From assembly GCF_000221185.1 (NCBI RefSeq), contig NC_015865.1, forward strand, positions 434,001 through 498,000: DNA of 64,000 nt. The letters are read 5' to 3'. Below are positions 23,743-31,154 of this stretch, piece after piece. The DNA is from Thermococcus sp. 4557. Lineage in GTDB: Archaea > Methanobacteriota_B > Thermococci > Thermococcales > Thermococcaceae. The translations under genes were made by a program, and so were the position numbers. Every line of letters begins with the position of its first letter. Positions within the stretch are counted from its first letter, which is position 1. The notes under the pieces are model-generated. The model made no database searches, was not told the DNA's origin, and saw only the letters and a list, made by a program, of their open reading frames with translations.

Positions 23743-23885
23743 CGCCCGGTGGCCCGGTCCCGGGAGCCGGTGCGGTGCCAGCGATGAGCGGGTGTGACGA
23801 TGCCGGGCGGACAGGGCTCGCCCTCCGGACCACCGGAGGACGCCGTCCGGCCGCCGATGAGGGATGGAGATGGGCCGAGCCCACA
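23743..23885 (+). ncRNA. two-hairpin H/ACA-like guide RNA (candidate)
   Basis: A very GC-rich stretch in the gap between mat and the translin gene. Bases 23743-23750 pair with 23802-23809 (8 bp, one G-U), followed after one base by ACA at 23811-23813. Bases 23814-23820 (GGGCTCG) pair with 23876-23882 (CGAGCCC), followed immediately by ACA at 23883-23885 and a T-run at 23886-23890. Both hairpins contain CGATGAG (23782 and 23855), a possible kink-turn strand for L7Ae. The inner stems are not clearly canonical, so the guide pockets are not assigned. Such RNAs direct pseudouridine formation with Cbf5, Nop10, Gar1 and L7Ae. Confidence 0.75.
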
Positions 23886-23890
23886 TTTTT
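23886..23890 (+). terminator. T-run at the end of the H/ACA-like RNA
   Basis: TTTTT directly follows the ACA box. T-runs are the usual archaeal termination signal. Confidence 0.45.
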
Positions 23891-23922
23891 AACCCCTTTG
23901 TCGAACTTCTTCCGGTGAGATC

Positions 23923-29914: not shown

Positions 29915-29974
29915 CAGATCAGCACTCAAGATCGTCATCATCCTGACGTCAGATATGCCGAGGTCATCATCCGT
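29915..29974 (-). ncRNA. C/D box small RNA (2'-O-methylation guide)
   Basis: All four boxes are present in order on the minus strand: C box ATGATGA (29970-29964), D' box CTGA (29952-29949), C' box ATGATGA (29941-29935) and D box CTGA (29922-29919). The D' guide is CCTCGGCATAT (11 nt) and the D guide is CGATCTTGAGTG (12 nt). By the N+5 rule the methylated bases would be the fifth of ATATGCCGAGG and of CACTCAAGATCG. It works with L7Ae, Nop5 and fibrillarin. A minus-strand TATA box lies 26 bases upstream. The length of about 60 nt is normal. Confidence 0.88.
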
Positions 29975-29990: not shown

Positions 29991-30000
29991 GTTTAATAAC
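29991..30000 (-). promoter_or_regulatory. TATA box of the C/D box RNA
   Basis: GTTATTAAAC on the minus strand is centred 26 bases before the C box, placing the transcript start within a few bases of it. Confidence 0.55.
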
Positions 30001-30950: not shown

Positions 30951-31004
30951 GGTGGTCGGCCATAGAATCAATCGCCGACAGTGAGGGGACAATCGTCTCC
31001 TCAT

Positions 31005-31132
31005 GGGCTCGGTTTACCCGCCTCCGCGAGGTATCGGGTTCTGTGAGCGGAGCGTGCTCACGCCGAGCCCACAGGGCCGGGAGCATCCACCCGCGCGAGC
31101 GAATGAACGCGGGCCTCTGTACCCGGCCCACA
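31005..31132 (+). ncRNA. two-hairpin H/ACA guide RNA with kink-turns
   Basis: It fills the gene-free stretch 30936-31214. Hairpin A: GGGCTCGG (31005-31012) pairs with CCGAGCCC (31063-31070) and is followed at once by ACA (31071-31073). Its upper stem is 31022-31027 with 31047-31052, capped by a kink-turn with G31028-A31046 and A31029-G31045 sheared pairs. The pocket strands are 31013-31021 and 31053-31062. Hairpin B: GGGCCGGG (31074-31081) pairs with CCCGGCCC (31122-31129), then ACA (31130-31132); upper stem 31090-31095 with 31108-31113 and a GA/GA-containing loop. The transcript may start earlier, with a 10-bp hairpin at 30981-31004. Target uridines were not searched. Confidence 0.85.
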
Positions 31133-31154
31133 ATTCGATGCACTTCTGAGGAAG

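Follow-up and report, generated by a model that had tools for sequence, protein, structure and literature searches.

The window, which is the whole stretch of 64,000 nucleotides of Thermococcus sp. 4557 DNA that was analysed, carries a box C/D sRNA on the minus strand at 29915-29974 in which the C, D', C' and D boxes are all perfect. The sRNA occupies the intergenic gap between the end of a 575-aa ORF (29891) and the start of an EamA-like ORF (30048), both of which are on the plus strand. Read from 29970 to 29919, the minus strand is ATGATGA-CCTCGGCATAT-CTGA-CGTCAGG-ATGATGA-CGATCTTGAGTG-CTGA, and the features are as follows.

29992-29999, minus strand: TATA element TTATTAAA of the putative sRNA promoter, with a conserved A/T-rich block at -29 to -25 from box C
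29915-29974, minus strand: box C/D sRNA gene, ends approximate, with four boxes in register and orthologues across the family
29964-29970, minus strand: C box ATGATGA, read from the sequence
29953-29963, minus strand: D' guide CCTCGGCATAT with core CTCGGCA; CTCGGC is kept in 70/74 genomes and the complement lies in tRNA-Leu(CAA)
29949-29952, minus strand: D' box CTGA, read from the sequence
29942-29948, minus strand: D'-C' spacer CGTCAGG, which differs among species
29935-29941, minus strand: C' box ATGATGA, read from the sequence
29923-29934, minus strand: D guide CGATCTTGAGTG with core GATCTTGAGT (29933-29924), the partner of nt 31-40 of tRNA-Leu(CAA)
29919-29922, minus strand: D box CTGA, read from the sequence

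The preliminary description had reported a complete C/D box RNA with perfect boxes and guides of 11 and 12 nt, placed antisense in the gap before the EamA gene, and both statements hold. A strict four-box pattern has a single match in the window, namely the sRNA locus, and gave no match in 200 dinucleotide-preserving shuffles. The terminal C (RUGAUGA) and D (CUGA) boxes, the internal C' and D' boxes and a length of about 50-65 nt, by which archaeal box C/D sRNAs are recognised, are all present. The genome also has a fibrillarin gene (PF01269 match, E 1.3e-101). Folding of the sRNA alone was uninformative (z = -1.06), as expected for a C/D RNA. Judged from its sequence, 29915-29974 is a genuine box C/D guide RNA. 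Two H/ACA sRNA genes are found elsewhere in the window, both on the plus strand and above the Rfam gathering score: HgcF (RF00058) at 30974-31143 with 148.5 bits and HgcE (RF00060) at 23776-23901 with 66.2 bits.

A TATA box upstream on the same strand had also been proposed. The element TTATTAAA is found at 29999-29992, and the orthologues also keep a TATA element 25-30 bases ahead of box C. In 50 thinned orthologues the A/T content at positions -29 to -25 relative to box C is 82-96%, compared with roughly 40-70% in the surrounding positions, and the conservation of this block supports the claim.

Searching with 86 bases recovered orthologues in nearly all genomes of the Thermococcaceae, and in four genomes missed by this search the sRNA was found by pattern. 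The two guides differ in how strictly they are kept: all 74 orthologues read share one and the same D guide core, GATCTTGAGT, whereas the D' core CTCGGC is conserved in 70 of the 74, and the D'-C' spacer and the flanks vary in both sequence and length. Across the phylum, 95 of 115 genomes contain the block TGATG-N(1-4)-ATCTTGAGTNCTGA, as one copy each except in a single genome with two, and reversed-pattern controls gave no match. The two copies (G063, C227:10048-10069 and C424:2393-2414) are in an assembly that is fragmented and 85% complete, and which may therefore be a mixed genome.

Targets were sought in the 16S rRNA, the 23S rRNA and the tRNA genes, as found by the tRNA model, of the same genome. 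The best partner of the D guide core is tRNA-Leu(CAA) of this genome, whose nt 31-40, ACTCAAGATC, form 10 Watson-Crick pairs with it and bring C34 opposite guide position 5; this passes the threshold of at least about 9 Watson-Crick pairs with a stable RNA, the +5 base included. No site in 16S or 23S rRNA matches the D guide as well as tRNA-Leu(CAA). The fifth base of CACTCAAGATCG, the methylation site predicted earlier for the D guide, is exactly C34 of this tRNA. The preliminary description had regarded its proposal as refuted if neither full target string occurred in a structured RNA of the genome. Taken literally this is the case in the RNAs read, since the full 11- and 12-nt strings are absent from the 16S, 23S and tRNA sequences. 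The 12-nt string is absent because the first and last bases of the D guide, one extra base at each end, are unpaired with tRNA-Leu(CAA), but the inner 10 nt are present in this tRNA and the 10-bp core still pairs. In 83 of 94 genomes the target string lies within tRNA-like sequence, and the tRNA-Leu(CAA) genes that were read are nearly identical among species. With 10 pairs and C34 facing guide position 5, the sRNA very probably guides formation of Cm34 at the wobble base of tRNA-Leu(CAA).

This target has been described before in a related genus. sRNAs aimed at position 34 of tRNA-Leu(CAA) are reported in three Pyrococcus (PMC7994747), and the Pyrococcus sRNA of Clouet d'Orval et al. (2001), as cited in PMC7994747, is of the same RNA class and acts on the same tRNA and nucleotide. 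The target is thus already reported for Pyrococcus and the window sRNA is a further case. For P. furiosus, Cm34 of tRNA-Leu(CAA) is predicted and was not detected by mass spectrometry, with incomplete coverage of the isoacceptors (PMC7668247). In T. kodakarensis 61 putative C/D sRNAs are listed in one study (PMC9014305), and an orthologue of the window sRNA may be among them.

Among Rfam families the window copy best matches RF00095 (snoPyro_CD), over the full model, with 25.6 bits and so below the 45-bit gathering score. By contrast, the orthologues in four genomes of one group, g3 (L038, L047, L048 and L050), score 46-56.8 bits; as they pass this Pyrococcus family, we take the g3 genomes for Pyrococcus. 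Their D guide core is identical to that of the window copy, while their D' guide and flanks have a different sequence and register.

The isoacceptor substrates of the bacterial enzyme TrmL are the leucine tRNAs CAA and UAA. TrmL (YibK) methylates the wobble position 34 of E. coli tRNA-Leu isoacceptors (PMC3763551) and, unlike the window sRNA, is a stand-alone SPOUT protein enzyme that works without a guide RNA. The C/D RNA of the tRNA-Trp intron, sR50 (Cm34 and Um39), likewise directs 2'-O-methylation of a wobble base, and both of its guides act on one tRNA (PMC7994747). However, sR50 sits in the tRNA-Trp intron, whereas the window sRNA is a free-standing gene predicted to act in trans on an intronless tRNA-Leu.

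A single sRNA might also serve two tRNAs, modifying C34 of tRNA-Leu(CAA) and also U34 of tRNA-Leu(UAA), where the target base would form a G-U pair. The latter tRNA offers 9 Watson-Crick pairs plus the G-U at 34, and an exact-match UAA guide was not found in the window genome, only one such sRNA being recognised in the family. We nevertheless consider this dual role unlikely, since a Watson-Crick pair at the methylation target base is generally considered necessary. A differently spaced UAA guide may moreover have escaped the search, and a separate UAA guide is reported in Pyrococcus (PMC7994747). Among matches to the exact pattern for a separate tRNA-Leu(UAA) U34 guide, only that in G009 has C/D boxes, the others being without them. 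This match (L166, around C1:1626481-1626502) is a second C/D sRNA whose D region differs by one base, GATCTTAAGT, and would match U34 of tRNA-Leu(UAA); its sequence suggests a duplicate that gained its new target by one change at +5.

The D' guide was compared with the 16S rRNA, the 23S rRNA and the tRNA genes read. Its core CTCGGCA is complementary to UGCCGAG, which is U9-G15 of tRNA-Leu(CAA) and also occurs in tRNA-Leu(UAG) and at 23S position 1274. Of 420 permutations of this heptamer, just 3 have a match in tRNA-Leu(CAA). The window's own copy makes 7 contiguous pairs with this tRNA, in a register that varies across species: in the 70 genomes with the CTCGGC core, the +5 nucleotide is G10 in 58, U9 in 11 and U8 in one. 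In four Thermococcus genomes (L064, L066, L068 and L069) the D' core is CCAGGC in place of CTCGGC and the D guide is the same; this alternative core could pair with a neighbouring stretch of the D-loop in the same tRNA and in many others.

These data bear on whether the sRNA is a true double guide, in which D sets Cm34 and D' directs another 2'-O-methyl to the same tRNA, at G10 or in some species U9. The complementarity to U9-G15 and the predominance of G10 at +5 speak for it, and the methylation site predicted earlier for D' does fall on G10. That prediction is weakened, however, by the shift of register among species, and with a different core in four genomes and just 7 contiguous pairs in the window copy, a second fixed methylation seems rather improbable. 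As the +5 register moves among species, we read the D' guide as an anchor, U9-G15 of the same tRNA being its most likely partner, although this is the least certain step of the interpretation.

Far less probable is that D' methylates 23S rRNA near 1274 (CTGCCGAG) or 2135 (ATATGCC) and matches tRNA-Leu by chance. Many orthologues do make 8 contiguous pairs at 1274, and the window copy makes 7 at 2135, but the guide bases flanking the match are unpaired and the sites vary (CGCCGAG and CACCGAT; TGCCAGG) and the guide does not change to match. Both 23S positions were rejected as D' targets on this lack of co-variation in 19 genomes. A chance assembly of C/D-like motifs with no gene behind it can be dismissed, given the absence of four-box matches in the shuffles, the conserved promoter element, and a D guide core that stays invariant in all 74 orthologues read while spacer and flanks vary.

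Beyond the family, one genome per species was scanned for the C'-guide-D block TGATGA-N(0-2)-GATCTTGAGTNCTGA, which has 20 fixed bases. At least 118 stretches, almost all of them archaeal, contain the block, compared with our own estimate of about 1.4 chance matches (257 Gb, both strands, three gap lengths). Among the matches listed, 79 of 80 titled stretches are archaeal, and C and D' boxes lie upstream in register in 103 of 118, versus 0.9% of random positions. The hosts include Micrarchaeota, Nitrosopumilus and other Nitrososphaerota, Thermoplasmatota, Heimdallarchaeota (Asgard), Diapherotrites and Thermococcus, among others. The D' guides are lineage-specific; Thermoplasmata, for example, have ACGAACCCTT, and Nitrososphaerota have ACCTATCCC.

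One proteobacterial bin (L278:65-86) holds a copy of Nitrosopumilus type, probably through a binning error or a contaminating archaeal contig. Four stretches that are Micrarchaeota-like by sequence (L298, L305, L307 and L312) have ATGGC, a possible start codon, at most about ten bases past the D box, as if the sRNA were the leader of an mRNA.

This distribution, with a full C/D frame in several phyla, points to RNA guidance of Cm34 in tRNA-Leu(CAA) as a trait widespread in Archaea. Since an exact pattern selects the same guide, convergence on the conserved anticodon loop may also account for the shared guides. It is a tentative and still doubtful extension that this wobble guide is among the most widely kept in Archaea, mesophiles included, and possibly ancestral, with the D' guide rebuilt in each lineage as an anchor on the same tRNA.

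Collectively, our data are best explained by a TATA-driven C/D RNP whose D guide would direct Cm34 and whose D' guide would grip the tRNA, a reading to which we assign a probability of about 0.9. The architecture and the conserved promoter element are seen directly, and the sRNA would be transcribed from its own TATA promoter. The fibrillarin gene is likewise present in the genome, and the sRNA would be bound by L7Ae, Nop5 and fibrillarin. The invariant guide and its complementarity to the target are direct observations as well; upon pairing of the D guide with nt 31-40 of tRNA-Leu(CAA), we infer that fibrillarin methylates the 2'-OH of wobble C34. Pairing of D' with U9-G15 of the same tRNA would most likely aid capture or unfolding and set no second fixed methyl.

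The published summary is that tRNA-targeting sRNAs use one guide, the other being without target (PMC7994747), and the possible pairing of D' with the same tRNA departs from this. The analysis assigns the window sRNA gene a predicted target and ties it to the reading of UUG leucine codons. Formation of Cm34 by an RNA guide in Archaea would parallel the protein-based TrmL of bacteria. The breadth across Archaea and the possibility that D' also holds on to the target tRNA add to the interest of the sRNA, and, if the latter is true, a single RNP would grip the body of a tRNA while methylating its anticodon.
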